Below the pieces are notes generated by a model. That model was not told where the DNA came from and ran no database searches. It saw nothing but the letters and a program-made list of their open reading frames with translations. The translations under genes and the position numbers were made by a program. From positions 12,063,524-12,127,523 of the forward strand of contig OY725488.1 in NCBI GenBank assembly GCA_963281255.1: a stretch of 64,000 nucleotides of DNA, written 5' to 3'. Numbering within the stretch: position 1 is the stretch's first letter; each line of letters begins with the position of its first letter. Source of the stretch: Aphrocallistes beatrix (Eukaryota; Porifera; Hexactinellida; Sceptrulophora; Aphrocallistidae). Of this stretch, positions 6,384 to 51,011 are shown piece after piece.

Positions 6384-6475
6384 CTAGCGATTTTAACGAT
6401 CTTAAAACTTCAGCTGTGTAGTATAGTTAATACAGTAGATGCAAGACATAACAACATTCTGCTAGAAAACGGTTG

Positions 6476-17200: not shown

Positions 17201-20200
17201 TAACGGACATACAAACTCTCCACTTCCTGTTTATACGCCTTATGCTCGTTAATCGCATCACAAGCACATGATATGACATGTAGAGCTCCGTCAGTTCGCT
17301 GTGCGTCCCACTCATCTTGACTAGCTCCCAGCACTCGCATACAATGCTGTAACACGAGGTCTAGAATGCCTCTGCGCTTCTGCACACATTCTTGAATCAG
17401 AGATTCTGCTGCTGACACAGGAGATAGGAAATCGTCGAAAATGTCAAACCTAGATAAAAATTGTAATATTTACAACAACCACAAACAATCAAATACGGGA
17501 TAGAAGTGTGCTTCTGCTCTTCTTAAGAATGTGGACTCATACTTGTACTATGTCTTTCGCCACGGAATAATCGTGTGATATACTTTCACGATAACACGTG
17601 GATATATTTTTGCTATGTCATCATGGGATCATAATTACGTTAGCATCTTATATATTAAAACGCTAGGATTTTGTTTGTTTGTCTGAATTGATTGAAGAAT
17701 TAGAAAGTCATAGAGATATGAAAATTGGCATGTAGGTATCAAATGATATGACTACGATTAAGTTCTAAGATCTAAGCGAAATTTTCACACCTCTGCAAAA
17801 AATGGAAAACAATTTTTCACAACTTTTCTATACAAAATAAATGACTACACTATCACAATAGAAATCATTGTACGACACTACAATAGATCGTCATTTTTTT
17901 AAAAACTTCAAAGCCACAACTTAAGTTTAATATCTTAAATGTATTATAGTGTATGGCAATAAAAAAGATTATGTGCATATTTCCACATCTTTATATACAT
18001 ATTTTCACACCATTTGATGAATTTTGAAAAATATGCTAGAGACTAGCATCAAGTTTTTAGGGGTGTAGATTTCGAATATCATATTTTCAGATCTATATGA
18101 TAAATTATGTGTATACTTTTGTTTACTTTAGATACATAAAGTAAACAAATCTCAAAGATATGCTAGAAACTTGCTTTCAACGGTTGACATGGGGGTTTCA
18201 GGGGTGTAGATTTCGAATACCATATTTTCGAGTAAACTTTCTAATTAATTTTACTTTTGGTTACAATAGATACATAAAGTAAACAAATTTCCAAAATAGG
18301 CTAGAGACTAGCTTCCAACGGTTGACATGGGTTTTAAGTGCTCTAGATCTCGAATATTATATTTCCGGATTCATATGAGAAATTATTCGTTAACTTATTT
18401 ATATAAAGAAAAATTTCCAAAAATAGGTTAGATTGAGTAACTCCAGGCGCCCGCAGGGCGACTCTGTGGACACGCAGTGTCTGCAAGCCGCACAGCGCAA
18501 GCAAGCGAAGCGCGCTTGTAATATTGAATAGATAAAGCGGACTTTGTGGATGAATTCTCGCTACGAATCGAGCCTATAAGGTTGGCACTACTAATTTCGT
18601 AAAGTGTCTACTCATCATGGATGTCTACATTAATGATATCATTGTTAACTTTAAGTATGTACATACATATACTTTAATCATTTGGTAACTACAAAAATGT
18701 ACAGAATGACAGGAAAGTGAAAACACTTTTGAAATCAGATATGTTTATGTTTATATATACTGGTAATACATTCTTAATGCCTATCCTACATGGTTAACGA
18801 TTTTAGGCTAATTGTGTACTAATCCATTCGGCTATTATCGCACCCTTGGTTATTTTACTGTGAGGTATTATTAGAGTAGGCTATGGTGGTATATAGAAAT
18901 TCCGCTGGACCCCAGGAAACGTTCGATGGGCTAAATTTGGTGCAAAAGAATGCCTAATGAGTCCAACTATGATTGTTTACTTTAGGGGGAAGGGACCAGT
19001 GTTGCCATATCATGCACAAAGTTCATAGATTTGACCATTTTCATGAACTTTTGAGTTGTGGCATGAACATGGCATGAACTTTTTCAGTTTCGTAAATTGT
19101 CGTTTCATGAATTCAATATCTTGTCAATGTTAAACGAGTTTATTTTGATAAATAACCTCAACTAAAACTTGAGTATCCATATTATGTTTATATCAATCAG
19201 AATCTCATGCACTGGTGTATTATTGATAACCTGAAATATAATTTGGATGATAATAACTTTTTAATTTTCACACTCGGCATGAACCTTTAACGTTTTATGG
19301 CATGAACTTGGTATGAACATTTGGAGGTATGTGGCGTGAACATGCTAAACAACTCATCTGGCAACACTGAAAGGGACCCAGTAGAAAATACGTTGCAGGC
19401 CCCGCACAACTAATCCGGGCCTAGATAAATGCAATACGAATGGATACCATGTTATTATCACAAGTTAATAAATAATCACAGCAATGACAAAATAAATATT
19501 TTAATATCAATCAATGTTGGTCACTCAGATATAAGGCTCTGAGTAAGATTAGGTGTAAACCTAGTTTGCACGTAGCCATAGCGATATTTCAGCTGATTGA
19601 TGAGGAAGCGACCAAAGAACACAGCAGTGCACAACAGGTACTGAGATCCAAGTAAAAACATTGCTATTGATTCTAGTAAGAAAAGGGCAGAATCTTCTAT
19701 ATCATAAACGTGACGAAACACTTCAATCTGTTGTTCTGTAACAAGCACTGGCTTGTAGTAAGCAGTTCCGTAAAGATGATTGAATAGACATGGACCGTTT
19801 TGTAGAGCGATAGTGAGTAGTGCGAAGATATTGTCTAGAAATTCAGACAAATTAAAGAATAGAATTGCTATTCCGAAACAGCACATAACGACGAGAAACT
19901 GATAACAGCTGATGACTGCTCTTCTGATCAATCTTTCGTTGTTACTTCTTATTCTCAACTCTACTGACCTCCATCTTAGAGTTCTGTAGAACATTCGAGT
20001 GTGCTTAACCCAAATAAGAAAATAGATGAAGCTCAAGAGGAGTATAAGACGACTTTTTTTAAAAGTGGATTCAGTGAAATCAAAGCTAGTAATTGAGCAG
20101 AAGGGAGACTACTTTGAACATTTAATGTAGTTTTGGATGTTTAGGTTCATAATAATAAAAATAATTGCATGGTTACGAACTAATTGAATGCTCTGAGTAT

Positions 20201-23200
20201 ATATATATGTTACAGGGTATCTGTAAAATCAGGGTAATTGTAATTACCCTGACTTTTTCAGGGTAATTGTAATTACAGTATAGCCTCCATAAGTGGGGGA
20301 GCATGGGACGGGATAAAACTGGTTTATCCCCCATTCCCCGGTTAAAATTCAATTATAATTTTCTAGATGAGAACATCTAACAGCCTATTTGAAACTTGTA
20401 GAATTTCAGAAAATACATAGTACATAGTACATATAACACACCCATTAATGTACCAGTTGAGTTTTATAAGTTACATAATTACATTTAGAAAACTCCACTT
20501 CCTAATATGGTACTTAGGTGGTATAATTGTTAACTTATAGTATGGAAGGGGGCGAATTCAGGGGGGGAAATTCAGGGTGGGAAAATGCCAACCTAGTTGC
20601 TCCTATGCCCATTGTAATAGTGTACTATTGATATTACTGTATATTTATTTCAGATAATGATCATTTACATTAGGAAAAATGATTACCTGTTAATTTTTTT
20701 AGCAAACTATATTCTTTGTGACAATTGCTCTTAGGTGAGCTAAATTGTGTTTCCCGTACTTGTGCATTACAGGCTGAGCAAATCTGGATGGACATGTGAA
20801 AATGGCCCAAGTTGCGCCTATACAAATGATCCACTATACAATGAGTGGTCACTATAATTAACCTAAAAAAACAAAGTAATTACAATTACCCTGATTGAAC
20901 CAGGGTAATTACAATTACCCTAAAAAAATCAGGGTAATTACAATTACCCTGATTTTACAGATACCCTGTAACATATATATATATATATAATAGATATACA
21001 AGTAGATATATATCTACATATACTTATACATATACATATAGTTCGCTTTAGGAACAAGGAACCCGGTGTAGAAAATACGTCGCAGGCCCCTCATAAAGCT
21101 CATCTGGGTCTAGGTAAAATGCAATACGAATGGATACCAAGTTATTATCACAAATTAACAAATAACCACAGTAATGCACAAAATAAAGAGTTAAATATTA
21201 ATCAATGTTGTTCACTCAGATATCAGGCTCTGAGTAAGATTAGGTGTAAACCTAGTTTGCACGTAGCCATAGCGATACTTCAGCTGATTGATAAGAATGC
21301 GACCAAAGAACACAGCAGTGCACAACAGGTACTGAGCTCCAAGTAAAAGAAATGCTATTAATTCAAGGATGAAAGTAGCAGAATCTTTAAAATCAAAAGT
21401 GTCTCTTAACGCTTCCAACTGTTGTTCCGTAACAAGCACTGGCTTGTAGTAATCAGTTCCGTAAAGATGATTGAAAATACACGGACCATCTTGTAGAGCA
21501 ATAGTGAGTAGTATGAAAACCCCGGTTAGAAATTCTAACAAATTTAAGCACAGAATTGCTATTCCGAAACAGGACATAACGACGAGAAACTGATAACAGC
21601 TGATGACTGCTCTTCTGATCAATCTTTTATTGTTACTTCTTATTCTCAACTCTACTGACCTCCATCTTAGAGTTCTGTAGAGCATCCGAGTGTGCTTAAT
21701 CCAAATAAGGAAATAGATGAAGCTCAGTATTGGTACAAGAACAATGTTAATGATCATCAGCTGTGGTACAGATCCCGTAGTGATGAGAAGAACTTCAAGC
21801 AGGCACGTGACTACCAGCAGGCGTCTTATGGAATGAGATGCAGTGGAATGGATGTTATGGAAGTTTTCATGAAGGAACTTCATCAGACAAATACCTAATG
21901 CTACGGATATCAATGGTCCTGATTGTCCAATGGATAGTATGATAGAATTAATAGGATTTTCATACATTAGCTTCGTTTGTAGATTAAAAAATTGTGTCAA
22001 CATTTTGGTGCAGTTTGAGTCAATAAGTCTGTAAGCACTCGGTATCTCAGCTAAACTATCCCCCAAAAGAAACAATGACATGGAACCAAACTCAGTGATG
22101 TTGATTAGTAGTAGAAATACATATTTAATGAACTCAGATTTGTGATGGATGGCTTCTTCTGAAAGATTTCCGAATGGATCTGATTTTGCCTTTTCAACGC
22201 AATGACGGTATGATCGGTTAAACTGTACTATCTTTCTCACGAAATATACATTCCAGATAATGGACACCAACGCACAGATCACAGTAAGTGGTAAAGCTAT
22301 CACGTATCCGAATATTACATCTATATGCATGTAATGAAACATTTTCTTTATATTTAGATGTGAACTTATTTTATTATTGGTTATGATTGCCTAGTTCTTA
22401 TAGTCAATAAATTGCTTACATAAGTCTAAAATTTGATGTATTATTGCTTTGTTGGATGAATAGGATGTAAGATTTTATTGTTATCATTAAATTATATAGA
22501 TGATCACAGCAAGGTGAAAGCGCATTATTAGAAATTAAGACACTAAGCAATAGTAATCAAACACGACAATATTAATCAGGCACGGCAATAATAATAGTCT
22601 CGAAGTCATTTAAGTTTAATTTTGGTCGTCAATTTTGGACTAAACTGAATTATGATAAATTTGTGGTCCGAATCACATTTGAGAGGTAATGTAATTGAGC
22701 CACTCTACCCTGATTTTAGATTTTGCTGATTCATCATGACGTCGTCATAATCCAATGAGGATAATATCGTAGAGTAATCCATACTGAACATTTTATCAGT
22801 AAATCTTTCATTTTTCTTATCCCCACCACTCGTAAGATAGGCACCTTCTCAGGAAAAAGTGGATCCATATTATTTTGCTGTGTCACAATGATCATGCTCA
22901 AAATCATCATGACGATGTTGATAGCATCATTTTGTAGAGACATCCATAATGTTCCTTTGGTATTAATATGGACTTGATCCATGTTTAGGTAATGTCTAAG
23001 TAATGTATAAGTAATGTATAAGTAGTGTTGAAGAAATGTTGAAGTAATGTCTAAGTAATCTTTAGTAATGTTTTAAATGTTAAGTAATTTAAACCCCTGG
23101 ATAGCTTGGGTTTTTTCTATTTATAGTAAATACCCTGAATTTGTATGGCTTCCACGCCCAAAATGGCTTAAGCCGGAAATGACGAGACACATTCCAGGGG

Positions 23201-26200
23201 TAACGGAGGGTTTAAGTAATATTTGGTAATGTTTTAAATGTTAAGTAATTAAGTAATTAGTACGAAAGTTATATAAGCATTCATTTGAATTCCAATGCTG
23301 GCACTAGTTTAATTAAAAATTAGATGCGTATATATCAACTGATATTAGTCTGAATTATATCTTAACGTAAAGTATATTAATAAAAAAATTTTATAATTAT
23401 AATTATTAGAGGGTCATTCGATAAGTTTTGAGCCTGGAGTAGTTGCTTCCATTTGATTGTGTTGAAAATTGCTAGGATTATTGATCTACCTATTATTACT
23501 TATATCTTTGGCTTTTAAGTTAGATTGGACGAGTTTCTAAAATATTATGCCACATATAATGGAGTATCCTTGTCAGGGTTGCCGTGGGAATGGAATTTCA
23601 ATACCCATTCTCATCCCATTCCCACAGAAAAACCCACAGAAAAACCCACAGAAACCCACAGAACTCACATGTGGGAATACCCATAGGCTTAAAGTCATTC
23701 CCATTCCCACGGCAACCCTGGTCCTTGTGGACTCCGACGCATTTGCAAACCATTTCCAATGGAATTTTATACAACACTTGTGGTTGTGTTTTTATGGATG
23801 CTAATACAAAATATCTTAGACAATTTCTTCATTACAAAATCAAACTCAAAGTCAAAGATAATAATAGGTAGGTGAATAATCCTAGAAATTTTCAACAAAA
23901 TCAATCGGAAGCAACTACTCCTAGGCTCAAAACATATTGAGTGACCCTTGTAAATGTATACAAACATGTTATTTATTTCGTTTATTAAAATACGTTCAGA
24001 TATTATTCGGAAAAATCGGTTGGCATATATCCAACCTTTGAACTAATGCCAAAACCAAAATGAGCAACATAAATTCGAACTAATGCCAGCATATAGATTC
24101 GAACTAATGCAGCGTCCTCTATAAGGGCTATTCTACAGTTGACTTATCATGGACAACGATATTAAGGTTCCAACGGTAAAATTCTTAATTTTAACTATGT
24201 ACATATACTAATGATATTTTAGTGTACAATAAGCACCAAAAGATACATCATACGAAGGAACTTCATCAGACCAATGCCTAATGCTGCGGATATCAATGGT
24301 CCTGATTGTCCAATGGATATTATAATAGAATTGATCGGAATTCCATACATTAGCTTGGTGTCCATGTTTAAAAATTGTGTCAACATTTTGGTGGAGTTTG
24401 AGTTACTAAAAGTACTTGGTATCTCGGCTAAACTATACCCAAATACAAATAATGACGTGGAACCAAACTCAGTGATGTTGATTATTAGTAGAAATATGTA
24501 TTTAATGAACTCCGATTTGTGATGGAAGGCTTTTTCTGAAAGATTTCCGAATAGATCTGATTTTGCCATTTCAACGCAATGATGGTATGAGCGGGTAAAC
24601 TGTACTATCTTTTTCACGAAATATACATTCCAGATAATAGATACAAACGCACAGACCACAGTAAGCGGTAAAGCTATCGCGTTGCAAAAGAATTCATCTA
24701 TATATATGAATAATGAAACATTCTATTTGTATTTGGATAGGGATTTGTTTAATTAAGAACAGGATTACATAGTTCTTATAGTCAATAAATTGCTTATGGT
24801 CCAAATCTGATCTGCTATTTCGTTAAAAATGGAAAGTAATATGGCTTTATCCTCATTCATAAAACAAATGATTACAGTAAATAAATGCACAATATTCGAT
24901 ATTTGGACGCTAAGCAATGATAATACGTTTGAAAACCAATTTCAAAGTCATTTAGGGTAAATTTTGGGTACAGAGTTAAGTATTTGATTTGGGACAAGAT
25001 TTACTCAATTTTGTAGCTCGCATCATATGTAGAGGTGATGTAATTGAGTCATCACGCGTATATCCCGATTTTAGATTTTGATGACTCATCATGGCAGTAT
25101 CATAATGGAACTAACATCATATTGCATAGCGCAGCTTCTCTAGCCATCTGTGTCCCATGAACTAAATTTATGTGGCCATAGGTGGTAATCAAAATTTTTT
25201 AAAATCGAGAATTAGTATTGCAACTCTCATATTAGCAACAAATTTAGGTACATATTTCGAAGATTATTTGTTCATTCTGAAGGTATGGCAGGTGCTCAAT
25301 TTAAAACTGGTTAGAAATCCTTTTCCTATGAACTTGAAACTATCCTATTTGGGCTATAAGATGAGCTTATTGATGTTATCAAAGACTTAACATTATTTCG
25401 AAAAGGAAGACCTGGTAAGCGCGTGGTGTAGTATTCCTTCTTCAGACCCATCAACCTGGAAGTATGTGTTGAAAATGTTATTGATGTTCCCAACACGTTT
25501 CTGCAATTAAGCCACGATTTTCACATTTCAGCGATGTACAATGCCAATGCTCGCATGTAATTTCTCAATATTTTCTATAAAACATCGTATACATTCTTGA
25601 TTATTACCAGTACTACAGGGTGGGCCATAAGTTCTGTCACAAGCTTTATTTGGTATAAAATTTCTTATACTCAAACTATATTAGTTATTATTGTCTTCAG
25701 AGATTGTAATTCGAATACTTTCAATGATTTAAAAAGATTTTTCGAGTCTGAGACCTAGAACTGTTTTGTACGGTGAGTTTGGTGAATAAAAAATGTGCCC
25801 TGGTTCGCAGCGAAAATGGCGAATCAGGTCTCGCTGCTTCTGTATAAATTGTCTACATAATCGATGTTCCATGACGATTTAACACCAGATACCTTTCATT
25901 CACCATAGAAATATTTCACGAATCTACTGAATTCATTTTCAGACATAAGAAAAAGTTATTCATTCGCAGTTCAAATTAGGTATATTTTGCAAAATTCCCT
26001 AAAATAGCATTAAGACCAAAAATGCTACACAGTATACCCTCTCACGAAAGATAATTCAATTTTCACACTTAATTGAACACTATTTCAAACCTAAAATGCC
26101 ACCTTTGGCACTCTATCCAATTTTAGGTCTTAATCCTACTTCGAAAATAATAAAACCACGTAACTCAGTCAGCAAACATTTCAGATAAGGCGACATGCCA

Positions 26201-29200
26201 ATGGACAAAAAAAAGTCTACTTAATTAACAACACACATTTCCACATTCAACTTCATAACGAGATGTCAAAAATATTCCAATGATCCAAGTTCAAAGATCT
26301 GAGAGTGAGTGCCTACAGTCCTTAGATAAAGGAGGTAATTAAACAAATTAACAAGAGAGCCATACAGCGGCCTTTGGGAAAGAATTCTCGCAACAAGACA
26401 AACGAGTCTATAAGGTTCAACCAAATTCTGTAAATGTTTACAAATCGTGGATGCCGACATTAATGTCTCACCTTTATTATTCTTAATTTTAAGAATGTAC
26501 AGACAAAATTTATAGTTTAGTATGCAAAACCTATAATGTGTACAGAGTACAGAGTTTAATATTAACCAAATGTTCACTTAATTAAGAAGCCTCTGAGTCA
26601 GGTTAGGTGTAAACCTAGTTTGCACGTAACCATAGCGATATTTCAGCTGATTGATAAGGAAGCGACCAAAGAACACAGCAGTGCATAACAGGTACTGAGA
26701 TCCAAGCAAAAACAACGCTATTGAATCTAGTAAGAAAAGGACAGAATCCTCTATATCATAAACGTGACGAAACGCTTCAAACTGTTGTTCAGTAACAAGC
26801 ACTGGCTTGTAGTAAGCAGTTCCGTAAAGATGATTGAATAGACACGGACCGTTTTGTAGAGCGATAGTGAGTAGTGCGAAGATATTGTCCAGAAATTCAG
26901 ACAAATTAAAGATTAGAATTGCTAATCCGAAACAGCACATGATGACGAGAAACTGATAACAGCTGATGACTGCTCTTCTGACCAATCTTTCGTTGTTACT
27001 TCTTATTCTCAACTCTACTGACCTCCATCTTAGAGTTCTGTAGAACATCCGAGTGTGCTTAACCCAAATAAGGAAATAGATTAAGCTCAGTATTGGTACA
27101 AGAACAATGTTAATGATCATCAGCTGTGGTACAGATCCCGTAGTGATGAGAAGAACTTCAAGCAGGCACGTGACTACCAGCAGGCGTCTTATGAAACGAA
27201 ATGCAGTAGAACGGATGTTATGGAAGTTTTCATGAAGGAACTTCATCAGACAAATGCCAAATGCTAGAGATATCAATGGTCCTGATTGTCCAATGGATAA
27301 TATGATAGAATTGATCGGATTTCCATACATTAGTTTAGTGTGTAGATTTATAAACTGTGTTAACATTTTTGTGCAGTTTGAATCATCATTGAGTTTGTAA
27401 GCATTTGGTATCTCAGCTAATCTATCCCCCAATAGACCCAAAAACATGGAACCAAACTCAGTGATGTTGATTAGTAGTAGAAATACGTATTTAATGAACT
27501 CCGATTTGTGATGGAAGGCTGCTTCTGAAAGATTTCCGAATGGATCTGTTTTTGACTTTTCAACGTATTGACGGTATGAGCAGATAAACTGTACTATCTT
27601 CCTCACGAAATATACATTCCAGATAATAGACACCAACGCACAGATCACAGTAAGTGGTAAAGCTATCACATATCCGAAGATTATATCTATATGCATGTAA
27701 TGAAACATTTTCCTTATATTTAGATGTGAACTTATTTTATTATTGGTTAAGATTGCCTAGTTCTTATAGTCAATAAATTGCTTACATAAGTCTAAAATTT
27801 GATGTATTATTGCTTTGTTGGATTAATGGGATGTAAGATTTTATTGTTATCATTAAATTATATAGATGATTACAGTAAGGGGAACGCTGAATCTGTCCTA
27901 CGCCTGAGTTCGGAATCTGTCCCACGATTATTTCGAGTTCGGAATCTGTCCTACGACTATTTCGAGTTCGGAATCTGTCCTATGCCTGAGTTCGGAATCT
28001 GTCCTACGATTATTCCGAGTTCGGAATCTGTCCTATGTCTGAGTTCGGGATCTGTCCTACGATTATTCCGAGTTTTCCAGTGCGTTTTGTGGGTTTTTTG
28101 TGTGGGTTTTTCTTTGGGTTTTGGGGGTTTTTATGTGTGGGTTTGTGTGGGTTTTTCTGTGGGTTTTTGTGGGTTTTGTTTGTGTGGGTTTCTGTGAGTT
28201 TTTGTGGGTATTCCCACTGATATCCTGTGGGAATGGGTTTTGAAATTCTATTCCCACGACAACCCTGATAGATTCCGAACTCAGGCGTAGGACAGATTCC
28301 GAACTCGAAATAATCGTAGGACAGATTCCGAACTCAGGCGTAGGACAAATTCCGAACTAGAAATAGTCGTAGGACAGATTCCGAACTCAGGCGTAGGACA
28401 GATTCCGAACAGTTTGGTTGTAGGACAGATTCCGGTAATATCGTTGTACAGAATCAGGCGACTCACAGTAAGGTGAAAGTGCATTATTAGAAATTAAGAT
28501 ACTAAGCAATAGTAATCAAACACGGCAATAATATTCAGGCACGGCAATAATGATATTCTCGAAGTCATTTAAGGTTAATTTTGGTCGCGGATTTTGAACT
28601 AAACTGAATTATGATAAATTCGTGGTTCGAATCACATTTGAGAGGTAATGTTATTGAGCCACTCTACCCTGATTTTAGATTTTGCTGATTCATCATGACC
28701 TCGTCATAATGCAATGAGGATAATATTGTAGAGTAATCCATACTGAACATTTTATCAGTAAATCTCTCATTTTTCTTATCCCCACCATTCGTAAGATAGG
28801 AACATTTCAGGAAAAAGTGGATCTATATTCTTTTGCTGTGTCACAATGATCATGCTCAAAATCATCATGACGATGTTGATAGCATCATTTTGTAGAGACA
28901 CCCATAATGTTCCTTTGGTATTAATATGGACTTGATCCATGTTTAGGTAATGTATAAGTAACGTATAAGTAATGTATAAGTAACGTATAAGTAATGTATA
29001 AGTAATGTATAAGTAACGTATAAGTAATGTATAAGTAAGGTTGAAGAAATGTTGAAGTAATGTCTAAGTAATCTTTAGTAATGTTTTAAATGTTAAGTAA
29101 TTAAAACCCCTGGATGGCTTGGGTTTTTTCTATTTATAGTAAATACGTTGAATTTGTATGGCTTCCACGCCCAAAATGGCTTAAGTCGGAAATGACAAGA

Positions 29201-32200
29201 CACATTCCAGGGGTAACGGAGGGTTTAAGTAATGTTAAAGTACGAAAGTTATATAAGCATTCGTTTAAATAATTCCGATGCTGGTGCTAGTTTAATTAAG
29301 AATTAGATGCGTATATGTCAACTGATATTAGTCTGAATTATATCTTAACGTATATTAATAAAAAAATTTTATAATTATAATTATTACGAGGGTCATTCGA
29401 TAAGTTTTGAGCCTGGAGTAGTTGCTTCCATTTGATTGTGTTGAAAATTCCTAGGATTATTCATCTACCTATTATTACTTATATCTTTGGCTTTAAGTTA
29501 GATTGGACTAAGTTTCTAAAATATTATGCCACATATAATGGAGTGTCCTTGTGGACTCCGACACATTTGCAAGCCATTTCCTATGGAATTTTTTTTATTC
29601 TCTTTATGGAAAAATGAGTTGGGAACAAATTTTTGATACTTCAATATTATCAATGATGCAATATATTCACAATCCGGGGGGATTCTATGATTATCATAGT
29701 TAAATTTCGTTTGCAAAACTTAAATAAATGTTTTTAGTATTCCAATTCAACACTTGTGGTTGTGTTTTCATAGATGCTAATACAGAGGTTTTCAACCTTT
29801 TTTTACTGTGGACCCCTATATCAATTTTCCTATATTCTGTGAACTCCCTCCTATTAACCGTAATACATAATTTCGAATCCTGTGGACCCCCTGATATCTT
29901 CTGTGGACCACTAAGGGGTCCATGGACCCCAGGTTGGGAACCGCTGTGCTAATACAAAATATCTTAGACAATTTCTTCATTACAATATTTTAGAAACTTT
30001 GTCCGATTGAAATCAAACTCAAAGCCAAAGATAATAATAGGTAGGTGAATAATCCTAGAAATTTTCAACAAAATCAAACGGAAGCAACTACTCCAGGCTC
30101 AAAACATATTGAGTGACCCTCATAAATGTATACAAACATGTTATTTATTTCGTATATTAAAATACGGTAAAATTCTTAATTTTAACTATGTACATATACT
30201 AATTATATTTTAGTGTACAATAAGTACCAAAAGATACATCATACAGAGTTTAATATTAATCAAATGTTCACTTAATTAAGAAGCCTCTGAGTCAGATTAG
30301 GTGTAAACCTAGTTTGTACGTAGCCATAGCGGTATTTCAGTTGATTGATAAGGATGCGACCAAAGAACATAGCAGTGCACAACAGGTACTGAGATCCAAG
30401 TAAATACACTGCAATTGATTCAAGAATGAAAATGGCAGACTCCTTAATGTCATATGCGAGTTTAAACGCTTCAAACTGTTGTTCAGTAACAAGCACTGGC
30501 TTGTAGTAAGCAATTCCGTAAAGATGATTGAATAGACACGGACCGTTTTGTAGAGCGATAGTGAGGAATGTGAAAAGCCCGGCAAGAGATTCACACAAAT
30601 TTAAGCACAAAATCGCAAATCCAATACAGCACATAAGGACGAGAAACTGATAACAGCTGATGACTGCTCTTCTGACCAATCTTTCGTTGTTACTTCTAAT
30701 TCTCAACTCTACTGACCTCCATCTTAGAGTTCTGTAGAACATTTGAGTCTGCTTAACCCAAATAAGGAAATAGATGAAGCTCAGTATTGGTACAAGAACA
30801 ATGTTAATGATCATCAGCTGTGGTACAGATCCCGTAGTGATGAGAAGAACTTCAAGCAGGCACGTGACTACCAGCAGTCGTCTTATGGAATGAAATGCAG
30901 TGGAACGGATGTTATGGAAGTTTTCCTGAAGAAACTTCATCAGACAAATGCCAAATGCTAGAGATATCAATGTCCCAGATTGTCCAATGGATAGTATGAT
31001 AGAATTGATCGGATTTCCATACATTAGCTTGGTGTCTATGTTTAAAAATTGAGTCAACATTTTGGTGCAGTTTGAGTCACTAAAATCATTTGATATCTCA
31101 GCTAAACTATATCCTAAAACATATAATGAAACGGAACCAAACTCAGTGATGTTGATTATTAGTAGAAATGCGTATTTAATCAACTCAGATTTGTGATGTA
31201 AGGCTGCTTCTGAAAGATTTCCGAATGGATCTGATTTTGCCTTTTCAACGCAATGACTGTATGAGCGGATATACTCTATTATCTTTCTCACGAAATATAC
31301 ATTCCAGATAATGGACACCAACGCACAGACCACAGTAAGTGGTAAAGCTATCACGTAGCAAAAGAATTCATCTATATATGAGTAATGAAACATTCTATTT
31401 GTATTTGGATGTGAACTTATTTAATTATTGAACAGGATTACATAGTTTTTATAGTCAATAAATTGCTTATGGTCCAAATCTGATTTGTTAGCGCTTTGTT
31501 GAAAAATGGAAATGGAAAGTAACTGTCATTTTAAAAACTATACAAATGATTACAGGTAAGTAAATGCACATTATTCGATATTTGGACGCTAAGCAATGAT
31601 AATAAGTTTGAAAACCAATTCAAAGTCATTTAGGGTAAATTTTGGGTATAGAGTAAAATATTTGATTTAGGACAAGATTTGCTCAATTTTGTAGCTCGCA
31701 TCACATGTAGGAGATTATGCAATTGAGTCATCACGTGTATATCCCGATTTTAGTTTTCGATGACTAATCACGGTATTTCATAATGAAACTAACATCATAT
31801 TGCATAGCACAGCTGCTCTACCTGTTTCTCTACCTACCTGTGGTCCATGAACCTATATTATGTTGATCATGGAGGGTGACTAAAATAATGTTTAATATCA
31901 GAATTTAAAATCATTCAAAACTTCCTTTGAAAATTATTTCTTCATACCCATTAATCGGAAAGTATGTGTTGAAAATGTTATTGATGTTCACAATTATGCA
32001 CGTATTTCTGCAATTAAGCCACGCATTTCACATTTCGTGATGTAAATGTACAACAATCTCGCATTAAAACCTTTTGTTGCCTAGGAATTTTGCTGCGTCA
32101 TTTCCGGTTTAAGCTATTTTTAGAGGTAAGCCATATAAAAACTGGGGTAGTTAATAGAAATAGGATGTACCTCAATGCATCTGAGGTCCTCACTATTTTC

Positions 32201-35200
32201 TACAAACCATCGTATACATTCTTGATTATTACCAGTAATATATTCGAGTAAAATAGTATGCATGTCATAACAATGTATAGTGTGGGACACAGTTTTGTCT
32301 GCGGTACGCTGGTGGGTCACGGTTAGAAAAAGAAAGTTGAGAACCACTGTTGTAGAGCCATCCATATTGAACACTTTATCAGTCATAAGTTTTCTTATCT
32401 CTTACCATTCGTAAAATAAGCACCTTTTCAGCAAAAGATATTTGAATAAAGAAGTCAATTAAACAGTAAATATTTCCAAACGGGTATCTATATTGGATCG
32501 GTATATGGAGTATCGTTGTTCGAGTTCAACCACTTGCTGAATGCAATAGATGCAAAAGCCTGCATGTCTACATGGCATTAAAATCCAAACTGCTGTTCTA
32601 GGGGAGACAACACATAAATCATTTCGGGTAAATGAAAATATTCAAAATGACATTTCAGAACAAATGACGACTTACAAATTCAGACAAATGCTGCGACCCT
32701 AGGAGATCAAGTATAGTTCAATAATCTCCTGCCCCATCCCTAGTCCAAAATCCTAAAGTTACTCTGAGGTTCAATGTATAATAAAGAGTCGTCGGAATAA
32801 GACCTAATTTGTAGTAGGAATACGTAAGAGCTAAAATATTTTCCAAGTAGGAATAAGAGCTAAAACACGCGAAGTAGGATTAAGACAAAGAATGCCACTC
32901 AGTACCCCCCTCACGAATAAAAATCCACTTTGACACTCAATTGAACCTATTTCAAACCTAAAATGCCACCTTTCGCTCTCTTTCCAATTTTAGGTTTTAA
33001 TCCTACTTCGAAAATATTAAAACCACGTAACTCACAGTCAGCAAACATTTGGCAACATGCCAATGGGCAACATGCCAATGGACAAAAAAATAAGTCTACC
33101 TAATTAACAACACACATTTCCACATTCAACTTCATAACGAGATGTCAAAAATATTCCAAGGATCCAAGTTCAAAGATCTGAGAGTGAGCGCTACAGTCCT
33201 TAGATAAAGGAGGCAATGAAATAAATTAACAAGAGAGCCATACAACGGCCTTTGGGAAAGAATTCTCGCAGCGAGACAAATGAGTCTATAAGGTTCAACC
33301 AAATTTCGTAAATGTTTACTCATCGTGGATGCCGACATTAATGTCTCACCTTTATTATTCCTAATTTTAAGAATGTACAGATAAAATTCATAATTTAGTA
33401 TGCAATTCCTACAATAATGACAGAATACAGAGTTTAATATTAATCAAATGTTGTTCACTTAATTAAATAGAAGCTTTTGAGTCAGGTTAGGTGTAAACCT
33501 AGTTTGCACGTATCCATAGCGGTATTTCAGCTGATTGACAAGGATGCGACCAAAGAACACAGCAGTGCACAACAGGTACTGAGAAACAAGTAAAAACACT
33601 GCTAATGATTCAAAAATGAAAGTAACAGAATCGTTAATATCATTAGCGTGTCTAAACGCTTCAATCTGTTGTTCAGTAACAATCACTGGCTTGTAGTAAG
33701 CAATTCCGTAAAGATGATTGAAAAGACAAGGACCGTTTTCTAGAGCAATGGAGAGTAGTGTTAGGATATTGTTCAAAAATTCACACAAATTTAAGCACAG
33801 AATTGCTATTCCGATACAGCACATGACGACGAGAAACTGATAACAGCTGATGACTGCTCTTCTGACCAATCTTTCGTTGTTACTTCTTATTCTCAACTCT
33901 ACTGACCTCCATCTTAGAGTTCTGTAGAACATCCGAGTGTGCTTAACCCAAATAAGGAAATAGACGAAGGTCAGGATTGGTACAAGAACAATGTTAATGA
34001 TCATCAGCTGTGGTACATATCCCGTAGTGATGAGAAGAACTTCAAGCAGGTACGTGACTACCAGCAGGCGTCTTATGGAATGAAATGCAGTGGAACGGAT
34101 GTTATGGAAGTTTTCATGAAGGAACTTCATCAGACAAATGCCAAATGCTAGAGACATCAATACTCCTGATTGTCCAATGGATAGTAGGATAGAATTGATA
34201 GGATTCCCATACATTAGCTTAGTGTGTAGATTCAAAAATGGTGCCAACATTTTGGTGCAGTTGGAGTCACTAGGTATGTAAGCACTTGGTATCTCAGCTA
34301 AGCTAAAGCCTAACAAATACAATGACATGGAACCAAACTCAGTGATGTTGATTATTAGTAGAAATACGTATTTAATGAACTCCGATTTGTGATGTAAGGC
34401 TGCTTCTGAAAGATTTCCGAATGGATCTGATTTTGCCTTTTCAACGCAATGACGGTATGAGCGGATAAACTGTACTATCTTTCTCACGAAATATACATTC
34501 CAGATAATGGACACTAACGCACAGACAACAGTAAGTGGTAAAGCTATCACGTATCCGAAGATTATATCTACATGTAAATGAAACATTTTATTTGTATTTG
34601 GATGTGGACTTTTATTATCGAATAAGATTGCCTAGTTTTTATAGTCAATAAATTGATTAGTCTAAAATCTGATTTGTTATTGATTTGTTGATTTAATGGA
34701 AAGTATTAAGGTTTCATTGTCATTTTAAAACTATACAATTGTAATAGGAAAGTGGAACATATTGTTTGAAATTAGACATTAGGCAATAAAAATAAGTGTT
34801 AAAATCAATTTCTAAATCATTTAGAGTAAAATATTTGATTTGGGGAAAAAGGTTTGGTAAAGTTTGTAGTTCCAATCAGATATGAAGTCATTTTAATTGA
34901 GTCACCACGCGTATACCCCGAATTTTAAATCTGCTGATTCACCATGATGTCAACATAATGAGTTTAACATCATAATGTAGAGACATCCATATTGAACACA
35001 CAACTCTAAGATAGGCACCTTTTCAGCAAAAAAAGTTCCATAATGTCAGTAAACTAATCAGTCAATATTTCAAAACGGTTGTTTATATTGGATGGTCATA
35101 TTGGGCATCGTTGTTCGAGTTCAATCGCTTGCTGACTGCAATGGATGCAAAGGTTCGTATGCATACATGGCATGAAAATCCAAGTTGTTTTCTATGCGAG

Positions 35201-38200
35201 AGGCGGCATACAACACAAAAATCGATAAAAACATTCCAAATTACCATTAGGCCAAATGAAGAAATACAAATTTAGACAAAAGCTGCATTCCCAGGAGATT
35301 ATTTATTAGTTGAATAATCTCCTGCCCCATCCATAGTCCAAAACAAAAAAAAACTAATGGACTCAAAATATGACTTTCTATTTAACAATAATATATTTCC
35401 CAAATTTAACCGGATGACGAGGTATCAAAAATATTTCACAAAGGATTCAAGTTCCATTACACGAGAATGAGCGCCTAGAGTCCTTACGTAAAGTAGTCCA
35501 TTAAACAAACTAACATAGGAGCAATGAAGGAGCCTCTGCGAATGAATTTTTGCCGCGAGGCGAACGAGTATGACTATAAGGTTTTCTATACTAAATTTCA
35601 TAAGTGTTTACTCATCGTGGATGTCGACATTGATATCTCATCTCTATCATCCTTAATTTTGGGTTTATACAGGCACTATTCAGAATTTAGTGTAAGTATG
35701 AACAAACTATTAATGTGCATCATGAAATTCTCAAAAATTAATTAACAACTACATTAATGTACAGAATACAGAGTTCAATATTAATCAAATGTTGTTCACT
35801 CAGATATAAGGCTCTGGGTCAGATTAGGTGTAAACCTAGTTTGCACGTAGCCATAGCGGTATTTCAGTTGATCGATGAGGATGCGACCAAAGAACACAGC
35901 AGTGCACAACAGGTACTGAGATGCAAGTAAAAAAAATGCCATTGATTCAAGGATGAAAGTAGCAGAATCCTTAAAATCAAAAGTGTCTCTTAACGCTTCA
36001 AACTGTTGTTCAGTAACAATCACTGGCTTGTAGTAATCAGTTCCGTAAAGATGATTGAATAGACACGGACCGTTTTGTAGAGCGATAGTGAGTAGTGTGA
36101 AAACCCCGGTTAGAAATTCTAACAAAATTAAGCACAGAATTGCTATTCCGAAACAGCACATGATGACGAGAAACTGATAACAGCTGATGACTGCTCTTCT
36201 GATCAATCTTTCGTTGTTACTTCTAATTCTCAACTCTACTGACCTCCATCTTAGAGTTCTGTAGAACATCCGAGTGTGATTAACCCAAATAAGGAAATAG
36301 ATGAAGCTCAGTATTGGTACAAGAACAATCTTAATGATCATCAGCTGTGGTACAGATCCCGTAGTGATGAGAAGAACTTCAAGCAGGCACGTGACTACCA
36401 GCAGGCGTCTTATGGAATGAAATGCAGTGGAACGGATGTTATGGAAGTTTTCATGAAGGAACTTCATCAGACAAATACCAAATGCTAGAGATATCAATGT
36501 CCCTGATTGTCCAATAGATAGTATGATAGAATTGATAGGATTTTCATACATTAGCTTCATTCGAAGATTAAAAAATTGTATCAACATTTTGGTGCAGTTT
36601 GGGTCACTAAATCTGTAAGCACTTGGTATCTCAGCTAAACTATCCCCCAAAAGAAACAATAACATCGAACCAAACTCAGTGATGTTGATTAGTAGTAGAA
36701 ATATGTATTTAATGAACTCAGATTTGTGATGGAAGGCTTCTTCTGAAAAATTTCCGAATGGATCTGATTTTGCCTTTTCAACACATTGACGGTATGAGCG
36801 GATAAACTGTACTATCTTTCTCACGAAATATACATTCCAGATAATGGACACCAATGTACAGATCACAGTAAATGGTAAAGCTATCACGTATCCGAAGGCA
36901 ACATCTATATGTATGTAATGAAACATTTTCCTTATATTTAGATGTGAACTTATTTTATTATTGGTTATGATTGCCTAGTTCTTATAGTCAATAAATTGCT
37001 TACGTAAGTATAAATTACATGTATTATTGGTTTGTTAGATTAATGAAATGTAAGATTTTATTGTTATCATTAAATTATATAGATGATTTCAGCAAGGTGA
37101 AAGCACATTATTTTAAATTAAGACACTAAGCAATAGTAATCAAACACGGCAATAATGATATTCTCGAAGTCATTTAAGGTTAATTTTGGCCGCATATTTT
37201 GGACTAAACTGAATTATGCTAAAATTAATAGTTCGAGTCACATTTGAGAGGTAATGTAATTGAGCCACTATACCCTGATTTTAGATTTTGCTGATTCATC
37301 ATGACGTCATCATAATGCAATTTGGATAACATTGTAGAGTAATCGTTAAAAAAGGAACATTTTATCAGTAAATTTTTAGATCATACAAAACTCCATTCGG
37401 ACAAATGCAGAACTTACAAAACTTCAATCGGATAAATGCAGAACATACAAAAATCCATTCGGACAAATGTAGAACTTGCAAAAATCCATTCGGACAAATG
37501 CAGAACTTACAAAAATTAGTAAGAAATTCAGACAAATGCAGAACTTACAAAACTCCATTCGGACAAATGCAGAACTTACAAAAATTAGTAAGAAATTCGG
37601 ACAAATCCATGCGCCCCGATTACCTAGTTCTTATAGTCAATAAATTGCTTACAGTCTAAATTGAGGAAACTGCCCGGCGTAGAAAGCTGATTTTTGGGAT
37701 GTGGGAACTTTTTGGCTATGGCTCCAGTAAGTTCTGAGCTCAGAGCAAAATGTTGACTCATCATGGAATTATGACGTCATTGTCACATTTTTAAAAGTTA
37801 AGCAATACAGTTATTCGAGCATAACTCAGTCATTATAGGAGATAGAAGGCTGAAATTTTAATAGAATCTGTATACTAACATACCTCACACATGATGCAAC
37901 TATCACCAAAAAAGGATAACTCATCACTTTGATATGACGTCATCATTACTCATCAAAATTTTTAAAATTGATAAATTTGGTGCTTTTTCGTGCGATATAG
38001 ATTATAACAGTAGGACATACGTATTTAGAGATGTTATCTCCCTTATAATTAACCAATGTGACTCCAGGCGACCGAAGGGAGCCTCCAGCGGACACTTTGT
38101 ATCCGCCAGCCGCGCAGCGCAAGCAAGCGAAGCGCGCTTGTACCCATTAATCGGAAAACATAAATCAATTCGGGTAAATGAAAATATTCAAAATAACAAT

Positions 38201-41200
38201 TCAGAACAAATGACGACTTACAAATTCAGAACAAATGACGACTTACAAAATCAGACAAATGCTGATACCCTAGGAGATCAAGTATAGTTCAATAATCTCC
38301 AGCTCCATCCCTGGTCCAAAATCCTAAAGTTACTCGGAGGTCTAATGTATAATAAGGAGTCGCAAGAATAAGACCTAAAACATGCGAAATAGGATTAAGA
38401 CCAAAGGGTACACAGTACATCCCCCTCACGAATAAAGATTCCACTTTCACACTCAATTAAGCACTATTTCAGACCTAAAATGCTCCATTTCGCTGTCCCT
38501 CTAACTTTAGGTCTTAATCCTACTTCGAAGGTTTTAGGTCTTATTCCTACTTCGAAAATATCGAAACCACATAACTCACAGTCAGCAAACATTTTAGGTA
38601 AGGCAACATGCCAATGGACTAAAAAATAAGTGAAATTAAAAATGGAGCCATGAAGCGGCCTTTGGGAATAAATTCTCCCAACGAGACGAATGAGTCTATA
38701 AGGATTGTTCAACCCAATTTGTAAACTGTTTACTCATCGTGGATGCCAACATTAATGTCTCACCTTTATTATTATTAATTTTAAGAATGTATAGATAAAA
38801 TTTATAATTTAGTATGCAATTACTACAATAATGTACAGAATACAGAGTTTAATATTAACCAAAAGTTGTTCACTTAAATAGAAGCCTCTGAGTCAGGTTA
38901 GGTGTAAACCTAGTTTGTACGTAGCCATAGCGATATTTCAGCTGATTGACAAGGAAGCGACCAAAGAACACAGCAGTGCACAACAGGTACTGAGATCCAA
39001 GTAAAAACACTGCGATTGATTCAAAAATGAAAGTAACAGAATCCTTGATATCATTAGCGTGTCTAAACGTTCCAATCTGATGTTCAGTAACGAGCACTGG
39101 CTTGTAGTAAGCAGTTCCGTAAAGATGATTGAATAGACACGGACCGTTTTGTAGAGCGAGAGTGAGTAGTGCGAAAACCCCGGCTAGAAATTCACCCAAA
39201 TTTAAGCACAGAATTGCTAATCCGAAAGACATGATGACAAGAAACTGATAACAGCTGATGATTGCTCTTCTGACCAATCTTTTATTGTTACTTCTAATTC
39301 TCAACTCTACTGACCTCCATCTTAGAGTTCTGTAGAACATCCGAGTGTGCTTAACCCAAATAAGGAAATAGATGAAGCTCAGTATTGGTACAAGAACAAT
39401 GTTAATGATCATCAGCTGTGGTACAGATCCCGTAGTGATGAGAAGAACTTCAAGCAGGCACGTGACTACCAGCAGGCGTCTTATGGAATGAAATGCAGTG
39501 GAATGGATGTTATGGAAGTTTTCATGAAGGAACTTCATCAGACAAATACCAAATGCTAGGAATATCAATACTCCTGATTGTCCAATGGATAGTATGATAG
39601 AATTGATCGGATTTTCATACATTAGCTTAGTGTGTAGATTTAATAATGGTGTTAACACTTTGGTGCAGTTTGAGTCACTAAATCTGTAAGCATTTGGTAT
39701 TTCAGCTAAACTATTTCCTAATAAATACCATAACATGGAACCAAACTCAGTGATGTTGATTATTAGTAGAAATATGTATTTAATGAACTCCGACTTGTGA
39801 TGGAAGGCTTGTTCTGAAAGATTTCCGAATGGATCTGATTTTGCCTTTTCAACGCAATGACGGTATGAGCGGATAAACTGTACTATCTTTCTCACGAAAT
39901 ATACATTCCAGATAATGGACACTAACGCACAGACAACAGTAAGTGGTAAAGCTATCACGTATCCAAAGGTTACATCTACATGTACATAATGAAACATTTT
40001 AATTGTATTTGGATGTGGACTTATTATCGAATAAGATTGCCTAGTTTTTATAGTCAATTAATTGATTAGTCTAAAATCTGATTTGTTGATTTACTGGAAA
40101 GTATTAGGTTTCAATGTCATTTTAAAACTATACAATTAACAGGAAAGTGGAAACATATTGCTCGAAATTAGACATTAGGCAATAAAAATAAGTTTAAAAT
40201 CGATTTCCAAATCACTGACAAGAAAATATTTGATTTGGGGCAGAAGATTTGGTACTATTTGTAGTTCCAATCAGATGTGAGGTCATGTAATTGAGTCACT
40301 ACGCATATACCCCGAATTTTAAATTGCTGATTCATCATGACGTCATCATAATGTAGAGACGGCTATGGCTCCACTAAGTTCAGACCTCAGACGAAAATGT
40401 CGCCTCATCATGGAATTATGACATCATTGTCACCTTTTTATAATTAGAATTTTCAGTTTCTCGACTTTAACTCAGTCACTTTAAGTGCTATCATAGAAGG
40501 ATGAAATTTTAATAGAATGTGTAGATTAATGTCCAACTCTCATCAAATAATGATGATTCAGAACCCTGTTATGACGTCATCATGACGCATCAAAATTGAA
40601 AAATTGGAAAATTTTGTGATTTTTCGAGTGATATCGATTATACCAGTAAGACAGATGTATTTAGAGATGTTATCTCCCATTTAATTAATCAATGTGACCC
40701 CAGGCGTTCAAAGGGCGCGTCCGCCAGCCGCGCAGCGCACGCTTGTGATCTTTAAAATAGAATATATTAGCATTCAAATCTTCATGTTTTCTTGTATTTT
40801 GCAATAAGTTTCATTGTCTAACCCATTGTTTTCGAAAAGTATATTAAAGGAGCCATAGATGAGCGCGTATTTTTCCAGGAGCGGAGGCTGGAGTTCGCTC
40901 CAATTATAGGTAAGGGAGCGTGGAGAGGGAGCGCGCTCCTAATTTTGAGGATTACAGTCAGGGTTGCTTATTGTGAACCACCAGGGGACCAAATAATATG
41001 TTATAATAAGGATAATTCATACTTGTATTAAGCGAACTTGGTTGATACAAATCCTATCTAAAAAATGAAATTGGGACCACGAGGTTAGTTCATAATAAAC
41101 GAATGTTCATATTAAGTAGGTTCATAATAAGCGACCCTGATTGTATTCATAATTCAGTTTGAGTAATTATAAACTCCCGCATCGTACTAAAGGCAGGCCT

Positions 41201-44200
41201 GGACTAACCAATAACCATATGGCAGATGTGGCATATGCCGCGGACCCGCGCTTTGGGGGCACTGAGCCTTTTGAATCCGTGTTTCATGTTAGAAAGTCCA
41301 GAGTCCGCTGGGCCCAGTTCGATGGGCTAAGTTTAGGTCCTCTATACTGTCTACAGACTGAGACCAATTATGTATTACATACTCAGGCTCAGTCGAGATG
41401 TTAACTAACCTTAACTTCTATGTACGTCATTTTGAGATGAAGTTAACTGCGTTAATTCAATCCGTTCGTGAACCTTTCATTCTCTCCTCGTTGAGAACTC
41501 TGCTTTAACTTTGCAGAAGTTCAATAAAATATTACCAAAAAAACAATGTAAACTGAGCTGACATAGTACGACACTGTTGTTATTGAAAAGTACAGTAGAT
41601 TTAGGAAAAATGTAATCATAAATATATATTCTTTCTGAGTGGGGCACAATTTTACACGCATACTACTACCCACCCAAGTTTAGCGATCAGTGCGCTAATG
41701 AGTCCTACTTTGATTGTTCGCTTCAGGAGCGAGGGGTTCCGCGTACAAAATATGCCGTGGGAACCACATAACCTTAATCTGGTCCTGGCTAAATGCTATA
41801 TGAATGTGAGTCATGTCATTATCACAAATAAACAACACAATAATGTACAAAATAAAGAGTTTAATATTAATCAAATGTGGCTCACTCAGATATAAGGCTC
41901 TGAGTCAGGTTAGGTGTAAACCTAGTTTGGACGTATCCATAGCGATATTTCAGCTGATTGATAAGAATGCGACCAAAGAAAAGAGCTGTGCATAACAGAT
42001 ACTGAGAAACAAGTAAAAACACTGCAATTGATTCAAGTATGAAAGTGGCAGAATTTTCTATATCATTAACGAGTCTAAACGCTTCAAACTGCTTTTCCGT
42101 AACAATCACTGGCTTGTAGTAAGCAATTCCGTAAAGATGATTGAATAGACACGGACCGTTTTGTAGAGCGATAGTGAGTAGTGCGAGGATATTGTCTAGA
42201 AATTCAGACAAATTTAAGCACAGAATTGCTATTCCGAAACAGCACATAACGACGAGAAACTGATAACAGCTGATGACTGCTCTTCTGACCAATCTTTTAT
42301 TGTTACTTCTTATTCTCAACTCTACTGACCTCCATCTTAGAGTTCTGTAGAACATCCGAGTGTGCTTAACCCAAATAAGGAAATAGATGAAGCTCAGTAT
42401 TGGTACAAGAACAATGTTAATGATCATCAGCTGTGGTAGGGATCCCGTAGTGATGAGAAGAACTTCGAGCAGGCACGTGACTACCAGCAGGCGTCTTATG
42501 TAATGAAATGCAGTGGAACGGATGTTATGGAAGTTTTCATGAAGGAACTTCATCAGACCAATGCCTAATGCTACGGATATCAATGGTCCTGATTGTCCAA
42601 TGGATAATATGATAGAATCGATAGGATTTCTATACAATAGCTTAGTGTGTAGAGTTAATAATGGTGTTAACATTTTGGTGCAGTTTGAATCATCATTGAG
42701 TTTGTAAGCATTTGGTATCTCAGCTAAACTATATCCTAACAAATACAATGACATGGAACCAAACTCAGTGATGTTGATTATTAGTAGAAATACGTATTTA
42801 ATGAACTCCGATTTGTGATAGAAGGCTTCTTCTGAAAGATTTCCGAATGGATCTGATTTTGCATTTTCAACGCAATGACGGTATAAGCGGATAAACTGTA
42901 CTATCTTTCTCACGAAATATACATTCCAGATAATAGACACTAACGCACAGACAACAGTAAGTGGTAAAGCTATCACGAATCCAAATATTATATCTACATG
43001 TAAATGAAACATTTTATTCGTGCTTGGATGTAGACTTATAATACTATTGAATAAGATCGCCCAGTTTTATAGTCAATAAATTGTCTAGGATGTTTTGATT
43101 TGTAGCCATTTTGTGATGTGGCCATTTTTTGCTGTGGCCGTTTTTTTGTGGCTGATTTATCTTCGCCAATTGCTTACTATTTAGTCCAAAATCTGATTAG
43201 TCATTGCTTTGTTGGATTAATTGAGACTTTGAGAGTAATATAGCTTTATTCTTGCAATCTTTAAAATTCAGACATTAGGCAATAATATTAAGTATTAAAA
43301 TTATTTTAGAGGACATTTAACGTTAATTTTGGCCACAGAGCATAATATTTGATTTTGGACAAAAGATGTGTTAACAATTGTAGTTCGAAAGTGTTGAATA
43401 CGATTTTCTCATTTTGAAAGTAAGATAATGGGGATATTTTAGTTACTATGCGACAACCTCCAAATATCCGGTACGAGCGCTGCTCCCAAAAGTGTCCAAT
43501 TTCGGAGGTTTATCTGTATACATATTTTGACACCTGTTTGGAAAATTTGTATTTTAAATTTCTTATAAGCAATATGTCAACAGCAAATATAGTGTATTTG
43601 AATGTGTAGAATCCGATTTTTTAAAAATGAATCAAAGAACAACACCCAAAAATCGTGGTGTAATTTTCACACCAAAATTGCCCTAAAAAGCATGTCATAG
43701 AGAAGTAAAAAATTCCACAATTTCTTATTCTACTCCTTTACCTGATCCTGATGTACTCTGTAGGATCTTCGTCCCACATCATCTGATCCTTCTGGGAGTG
43801 GCACATGAGGGGGAAGAGGAGAGAGAGGAAGAGAGGCTCGAAGTGGGGACGAATCAGTTTCCAGCTGACAGAGTGTGAGATGGAGTAAGCGAGGTAGGAT
43901 AGGGAGATCTGGAGGGTGGCGTCTGTGAGGAGAGTTCCCTTGGTGTGCTGATCCAACTGCTGTAGGATCAGTGTCACTACCTATATTTAGATACAACATT
44001 TATATCGTTATAACAAAATAGAATCTAACATCACATATCCCATTGATGCAGTCAGTCCTTAATATGAATTCATTCATTATGAACCAGTGGAGGAGATATG
44101 TTCGTTCGTAACAGGTCCTGTAATAAACACAAAAAAAAGTGAAAAAGGTGATTGCCGTTATAGACAGGTAGTGGCCGTATTACACAGTTTTAGGGTAGTA

Positions 44201-50976: not shown

Positions 50977-51011
50977 TGTATGTACTTTACATTCTAAGTT
51001 ACATTATCTGT

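Follow-up and report, generated by a model that had tools for sequence, protein, structure and literature searches.

We analysed a 64,000-nucleotide stretch of the genome of the hexactinellid sponge Aphrocallistes beatrix (assembly GCA_963281255.1, contig OY725488.1, positions 12,063,524 to 12,127,523 of the forward strand), hereafter the window, in which one very large intron of an importin-7 gene houses an array of receptor-like genes. The importin-7 gene lies on the minus strand (46671-12963) and, rebuilt exon by exon, comprises nine exons encoding 1059 amino acids, with no internal stop in the spliced product and GT...AG borders at every intron. The other seven introns span 136-1422 bp, whereas intron 4 measures 26,292 bp and contains seven intact and two partial intronless membrane-protein genes, all on the host strand (Table 1).

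The identity of the host was established by a phmmer comparison of the 1059-residue product with Xenopus importin 7 (6n88_A), which aligned over query residues 7-1046 (E 2.5e-197). Exon 2 carries an IBN_N domain above the Pfam cut-off, and full-length similarity, including the N-terminal importin-beta domain, places the gene in the Importin-7/8 group; the name importin-7 is taken from the Xenopus match. The alignment runs unbroken across the exon 4/5 junction, where EYIRI-R-FDIFDDF stands opposite EYIRM-K-FDVFEDF. Exon 4 ends in GAG TAC ATC AGG ATC AG before the donor gtaaag, and exon 5, preceded by ...tttttatctag, opens with G TTT GAC ATT TTC. A preliminary description of this DNA had joined exons 4 and 5 in exact phase, and donor and acceptor fit that join; structure, phase and the Xenopus alignment likewise agree with its prediction that the 26.3 kb between them form a single importin intron, while its count of eight exons is corrected here to nine.

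The intact nested open reading frames (ORFs) encode 373-376 amino acids, and eight of the nine nested copies are 76-89% identical to the ninth. The counts and orientation given earlier, seven intact ORFs on the host strand and two broken copies, were reproduced in full (7/7 and 2/2). Each receptor had also been credited with its own promoter. In all 13 copies examined, the ATG is preceded at 55-62 bp by a TATA-like box (5.5 expected from shuffling), and an A[AT]TAAA signal follows the stop within 60 nt in 9 of the 13 (1.6 expected), including five of the seven intact intronic genes. Both are consensus matches in the DNA, and as such they speak for the proposed promoters and suggest that each receptor gene is probably a self-contained transcription unit.

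Table 1. Features of the importin-7 locus and its surroundings, in window coordinates.
Feature	Positions	Strand	Comment
Importin-7 intron 4, 26,292 bp	17450..43741	-	houses the receptor array; counterpart in the C6 paralogue ~0.6 kb
Intact receptor gene, 376 aa	41882..43012	-	first in intron
Intact receptor gene, 375 aa	38870..39997	-	
Intact receptor gene, 376 aa	35796..36926	-	
Intact receptor gene, 375 aa	33459..34586	-	
Intact receptor gene, 373 aa	30272..31393	-	
Intact receptor gene, 376 aa	26578..27708	-	
Broken receptor copy	24255..24710	-	N-terminal part only
Intact receptor gene, 376 aa	21212..22342	-	
Broken receptor copy	19524..20048	-	C-terminal part only
Receptor upstream flank ("tag")	43231..43441	-	adjoins the first intronic receptor; C6 counterpart is the proposed relic of a lost nested receptor
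Importin-7 exon 1	46535..46671	-	ATG at 46671
Importin-7 exon 2	45848..46175	-	
Importin-7 exon 3	44637..45065	-	
Importin-7 exon 4	43742..43980	-	
Importin-7 exon 5	17061..17449	-	
Importin-7 exon 6	16117..16628	-	
Importin-7 exon 7	15646..15980	-	
Importin-7 exon 8	13542..14223	-	
Importin-7 exon 9	12963..13091	-	includes the stop
Same-subfamily receptor copy outside the host	7686..8785	+	frame broken
Same-subfamily receptor copy outside the host	2516..3400	+	partial and broken
Duplicate of importin 3' end	5308..6451	-	includes a copy of exon 9; matches 12166-13283
More distant family receptor	51562..52716	+	48% identity; upstream of the importin gene

To gauge the size of the family, one receptor was used as a query against its own genome (100.5 Mb, 28 contigs), where at least 109 places were scored; because these were scored among 469 candidates, 109 is a lower bound. 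The matched receptor stretch was free of internal stops at 102 of the 109 places. Three Pfam scans returned no seven-transmembrane (7TM) family: three members matched no family at E up to 1, the 13 window members and fragments reached at best E 0.45 (DUF2254), and 11 diverse members at best E 0.19. The best hits of PDB profile searches (E 0.067 and 2.1) were both unrelated proteins, and the members scanned against Pfam and PDB show no sequence similarity to a known 7TM family. Viral and prokaryote contigs, searched for relatives, gave 180 and 28 pattern matches and no relative.

In an alignment of 38 members, hydropathy peaks and loop charges fit seven helices with the N-terminus outside and the C-terminus inside, as in G protein-coupled receptors (GPCRs). 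Counted per protein, lysine and arginine together number 6.1 in loop 1, 2.9 in loop 3, 9.0 in loop 5 and 5.4 in the C-terminus, versus 2.2, 0.0 and 1.7 in loops 2, 4 and 6, and loop 2 carries an N-glycosylation sequon in all 38 members. The topology follows simple rules, with helix borders placed by eye; an extra hydrophobic stretch at 276-296 is read as probably not membrane-spanning, since the basic C-terminus would otherwise lie outside. Insect-type odorant and gustatory receptors are 7TM proteins with the N-terminus inside, and the simple charge count points here to the opposite orientation. The label "receptor" is thus drawn from topology and family size rather than from homology, and the function it implies is a presumed one. 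With its 109 or more places in the genome and no relative found in Pfam or PDB, the family is a candidate undescribed group of animal 7TM receptors.

The nested array bears the marks of block duplication. The segment at 19.4-25.1 kb corresponds in part to that at 26.5-31.8 kb, and 33.2-35.0 kb corresponds to 38.6-40.4 kb; extended flanks common to the copies (22504-23573 with 28463-29552, and 24254-25142 with 30928-31820) indicate duplication in place. Kimura two-parameter (K2P) distances between duplicated segments are 0.045-0.12 in seven of the eight compared pairs, while the eighth, of 103 bases, stands at 0.24. The earlier statement that the array is growing finds its support in these duplicates, 4.5-12% diverged in seven pairs and 24% in the short one. 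In the receptor tree, the copies at 19.5 and 26.6 kb pair (97/99), as do those at 21.2 and 35.8 kb (100/100) and at 24.3 and 30.3 kb (89/90).

The ratio of non-synonymous to synonymous divergence (dN/dS) is 0.32-0.74 in 66 receptor pairs, a set that leaves out pairs with the copy on contig C11, the distant receptor and four other distant members. Within the importin-linked subfamily, dS falls to 0.02-0.14 at codons 151-240, compared with 0.24-0.65 at codons 91-150, and to 0.04-0.13 at codons 31-60 (0.25 against the C3 copy). The pattern along the gene holds between intronic copies and also against the copies to the left of the window and those on other contigs, C11 and C3. A family-wide constraint on the middle of the gene was considered and dropped: of four comparisons within other subfamilies, two had no trough at codons 151-240 and two were too close to tell. 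These values are most simply read as gene conversion among copies, those outside the host included, and the low silent divergence at codons 31-60 and 151-240 is probably due to gene conversion or to an embedded constraint.

The preliminary description had placed the array inside the importin intron. The nesting is real, but the array is not confined to the intron, being one part of a cluster of about 140 kb that straddles the importin gene and extends past its 3' end on the opposite strand. Over the 192.5 kb scanned, the plus strand past the importin 3' end carries nine further copies of the same subfamily, four of them with a full-length open frame, and one short fragment. They start 98 kb to the left of the window, reach position 8785 and are interrupted by an interval of about 68 kb that holds none of them. 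The duplicate of the importin 3' end within this region arose by a tandem segmental duplication that also carried a receptor copy, and its exon 9 is 90% identical in protein to the original.

A second importin-7 gene was identified on contig C6 (5390199 to about 5399800, plus strand). Its exons 1-8 form 982 codons without a stop and match the same Xenopus chain (E 1.3e-175); exon 9 could be traced only partially, across a gap of one base, and without a clear end. The two importins differ by a dN of 0.067 and a dS of 0.167. At 43 differing sites exactly one copy keeps the Xenopus residue, the window gene at 32 and the C6 gene at 11 (p 0.002), and 73 further differing sites match Xenopus in neither, so that by this count the array-bearing window importin is the more conserved and slower-evolving of the two. 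The host had been called essential; it is an importin-7 gene, yet one of two in the genome, and its essentiality may therefore be buffered.

Intron 4 of the C6 gene is only about 0.6 kb long, with the same donor and phase between the same two exons, 4 and 5. The 25 kb examined around this gene yielded no receptor match. That the C6 copy joins these exons in the same phase across so short a distance is a strong argument against two mis-assembled, unrelated half-genes, the alternative envisaged at the outset, in which exons 1-4 and 5-8 would derive from different genes or from a mis-join. The first part of the C6 intron matches the start of window intron 4 (about 510 bp in common). The final stretch of ~210 bp corresponds to window 43441-43231, where the first nested receptor has its upstream flank; in C6 this flank runs almost directly into the exon 5 acceptor. 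Close to each end of the window insert stands the hexamer TATTAC (43240-43235 and 17468-17463), and a single one is seen at the C6 junction, a pattern such as may be left by deletion between short repeats or by insertion. Separately, a repeat of 84% identity is common to intron 2 of the C6 importin (C6:5391806-5392872) and window 17645-18523, near the 3' end of intron 4.

A profile built from the flanks of ten other receptors (intronic, distal left and C3) matches the window flank at E 3.3e-24 and the C6 intron at E 1.5e-21, over about 135-140 bases in both introns. When the flank of one intronic receptor was searched against the genome, all nine matches, the query included, lay upstream of a receptor or a broken receptor; the C6 flank did not come up in this single-flank search. 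The match on C8 has a receptor with an internal gap downstream, and the flank near -84 kb is followed by a 26-codon receptor remnant. With 9/9 matches upstream of receptors, and one C3 copy as the exception, an ordinary dispersed repeat was rejected as the nature of the flank; the importin intron further 5' (query positions 122-309) does match many dispersed places. The receptor at 26.6 kb is the sole intact intronic receptor without a seen upstream flank, and upstream of it, at 27906-28434, we observed a repeat (GAGTTCGGAATCTGTCC...) whose reverse complement lies about 200 bases further.

The comparison took in fourteen flanks and left out those of the receptor at 26.6 kb, where none was seen, of C3_2232, where it is cut short, and of C8, which was found later. 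In an unrooted tree, the C6 flank pairs with that of the first intronic receptor at 98/98 support. In all 1000 bootstraps the distance between these two fell below the mean of the distances to the other twelve, and in 952 it fell below each of those distances taken singly. In K2P terms, from pairwise alignments that are lenient on gaps, the C6 and window flanks differ by 0.19-0.22, the other importin introns by 0.07-0.16, and the flank of the first intronic receptor from the other twelve by 0.31-0.56. Taken together, the flank, intron and segment divergences suggest that the receptor lineages are older than the importin duplication and that a receptor already sat in intron 4 at that time; they further suggest that the C6 copy lost its nested receptor and that the window array grew later by block duplication.

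We consider it probable, on this evidence, that intron 4 of importin-7 holds a birth-and-death array that was nested before the importin duplication, lost from C6, enlarged in the window and independently transcribed. A receptor of the importin-linked subfamily would have resided in intron 4 before the host was duplicated, and the C6 duplicate would have lost it, probably by deletion between the short TATTAC repeats, which would leave behind a short intron whose acceptor works and which still contains some 200 bp of the receptor's upstream flank. In the window, the array would then have grown by block duplication, with gene conversion involving copies inside and outside the host keeping the middles of the genes alike. 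Each nested gene would most likely be transcribed alone, from a TATA-type promoter to its own poly(A) signal, while the host polymerase would pass the receptor signals on the sense strand and the whole 26 kb would be spliced out of the host transcript. What the DNA itself shows are the gene structures, the nesting, the receptor flank inside the C6 intron, the duplicated blocks and a dN/dS below 1; to these the explanation adds the order of events, the deletion mechanism, gene conversion, independent transcription and receptor function.

Several observations weigh against this account. The timing is read from some 145-170 aligned bases of noncoding DNA under an assumption of similar rates, and the unrooted flank topology does not by itself settle it. 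The coding dS of receptor pairs, 0.12-0.25, is not clearly above the importin dS of 0.167, which we attribute to gene conversion. Five flanks, belonging to copies near the importin 3' end or on C11, are without the flank sequence: the profile search gave at best E 1.3, with shuffled controls from 1.7, and homology of the flank to the upstream sequence of these five receptors was rejected, so that the flank could instead be importin intron sequence acquired by receptors. One C3 copy of the flank (~2236315) has no receptor directly downstream. The nine intronic copies do not form one clade in the best tree, although such a clade was not rejected either (approximately unbiased test, p 0.089). The poly(A) signal looked for is absent from two of the seven intact nested genes and four of the 13 copies, and the 26-kb splicing and the separate receptor transcripts are predicted from the DNA only.

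The most serious alternative reverses the first two steps. The importin would have been duplicated first and a receptor inserted near the 3' end of intron 4 in the window copy only; C6 would then be the original empty site, the flank would be importin sequence that travelled with the receptor as it was copied, both inside the intron and to C3, C8 and the distal left array, and the intron would be the birthplace of that group. The C6-window homology ends, by eye, within about 10-15 bp of the start of the homology to the flank-less receptors, the flank-bearing receptors included in the tree form one group of 14 rows (95/94), and the unrooted flank tree is compatible with such a history. It requires, however, a rate of evolution two to three times higher in the flanks of the other receptors, some of which lie in the same intron, than in that of the first. 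Moreover, many of these other flanks have common sequence further upstream which, in the part of the alignment considered, is not in the window importin intron, and the window flank matches only positions 103-240 of the 304 in the profile. We regard an insertion into an empty site as unlikely.

A more far-reaching version of the pre-duplication history can be imagined, in which a chemoreceptor-like 7TM family, so far undescribed, has long had its nursery in intron 4, where it bred before the host duplication and from which it seeded the distal cluster, C3 and C8; the paralogue that shed its receptors would now be the faster-evolving one, and same-strand transcription and poly(A) signals would set the output of the array-bearing copy. 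We hold this to be distinctly unlikely. Improbable, in our view, is the proposal that the nested array was co-opted for control of the host, its same-strand promoters and poly(A) signals lowering or tuning full-length importin-7 while the array-free C6 copy supplies uncontrolled importin. The sense-strand A[AT]TAAA signals in five of the seven intact nested genes and the presence of the array in one paralogue and not in the other would suit it, but in the TipE precedent host and nested expression are poorly correlated (PMC3240667), and the array-bearing copy is the slower-evolving one (32 versus 11 retained Xenopus residues) and so does not look like a damaged host. Very improbable is an artefact of assembly or annotation, in which the 26-kb intron would be the product of joining two half-genes or a collapsed cluster. 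Nearly identical tandem copies are prone to mis-assembly, but, as judged from the assembly itself, the 192.5 kb examined contain no N, the splice sites agree with the reading phase, and the C6 copy joins the same exons with the first ~510 bp of the intron in common.

Some features of the surroundings may be recorded here. Upstream of the importin, two tRNA-Asp (GTC) genes 2.7 kb apart (51011-51086 and 53766-53838) flank the distant receptor at 51562-52716. The same side of the importin carries a large minisatellite at 49986-50968, with about 60 copies of the 17-base unit CGGATAACTGAAGTGTT, an MFS (major facilitator superfamily) transporter at 57587-59107 (PF07690, E 9e-27), and a putative single-pass receptor at 60094-61110 with several tail tyrosines and just a weak Pfam match to I-set (E 0.12). 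Elsewhere in the genome, at C3:2228001-2248000, two receptors alternate with copies of a coiled-coil-like ORF of about 420 amino acids (MATAIVAPPEILSFENEISEAKRE...), and an ORF like it is found close to the receptor at C1:9.03 Mb; the two families may thus have been amplified together. A tyrosine-kinase gene near C1:10.40 Mb was considered as a second receptor host and set aside, one exon holding a whole kinase stretch beside a separate kinase-like fragment rather than two halves of one gene.

The array had been described as unusual for being a growing set of one family within a host intron. Arrays of one family in one intron are already known, and the importin-7 case joins that kind; what seems less usual is the orientation of the receptors with the host, a paralogous host that seems to have shed them, and a family without detected relatives. 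The closest parallel is the GMC oxidoreductase cluster in the 83.2-kb intron 2 of Drosophila flotillin-2 (PMC1891103). As described there, several insects have 10-12 such genes grouped in flotillin-2, almost all of them in the reverse orientation to the host; the array is conserved across four insect species and is proposed as the possible birthplace of the family. Both are tandem arrays of one family, grown by duplication in a single very large intron of an unrelated gene. By that account, however, the GMC genes encode enzymes, lie mostly opposite to the host and are conserved across the four insects, whereas the genes described here are receptor-like, follow the host orientation, occupy a coding intron in mid-gene and are known from one genome, in which the host paralogue seems to have lost them.

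CG18675 likewise holds several members of one family nested in a single intron, its last: these form the TipE cluster of sodium-channel subunits, whose expression correlates poorly with that of the host and for which escape from nesting is recorded in some lineages (PMC3240667). As portrayed there, TipE is an old, stable set of four members plus an unrelated gene, in contrast to the nine copies found here, some recent and two broken. Nested intronic genes are common in sponge and ctenophore genomes: they make up 12.4% of genes in Aphrocallistes vastus, number 3358 in the Amphimedon annotation and 2357 in the ctenophore Hormiphora, where many run parallel to the host (PMC10282587, PMC8527503); in the parts of these accounts used here, no expanding receptor array of one family in one intron is described. 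Finally, the sponge-specific Rhodopsin-family GPCRs AqRho-A to E of Amphimedon occur in runs of 2-8 adjacent genes (PMC4302439), also a lineage-specific expansion of 7TM receptors in clusters. The present family appears to differ in that the members scanned have no Pfam 7TM match. Within the open-licence PubMed Central literature, no description of a receptor array in an importin intron was found by title, and importin-7 together with intron and nested gene gave no match.

The effect of same-strand nested genes on their host, be it harmful, helpful or neutral, is seldom easy to test, since a control is mostly missing. The two importin-7 genes of this genome, of which one has nine nested copies in intron 4 and the other a relic only, together constitute a natural control. 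Premature ending, splicing yield and promoter interference could thus be compared between the two hosts in the same cells.

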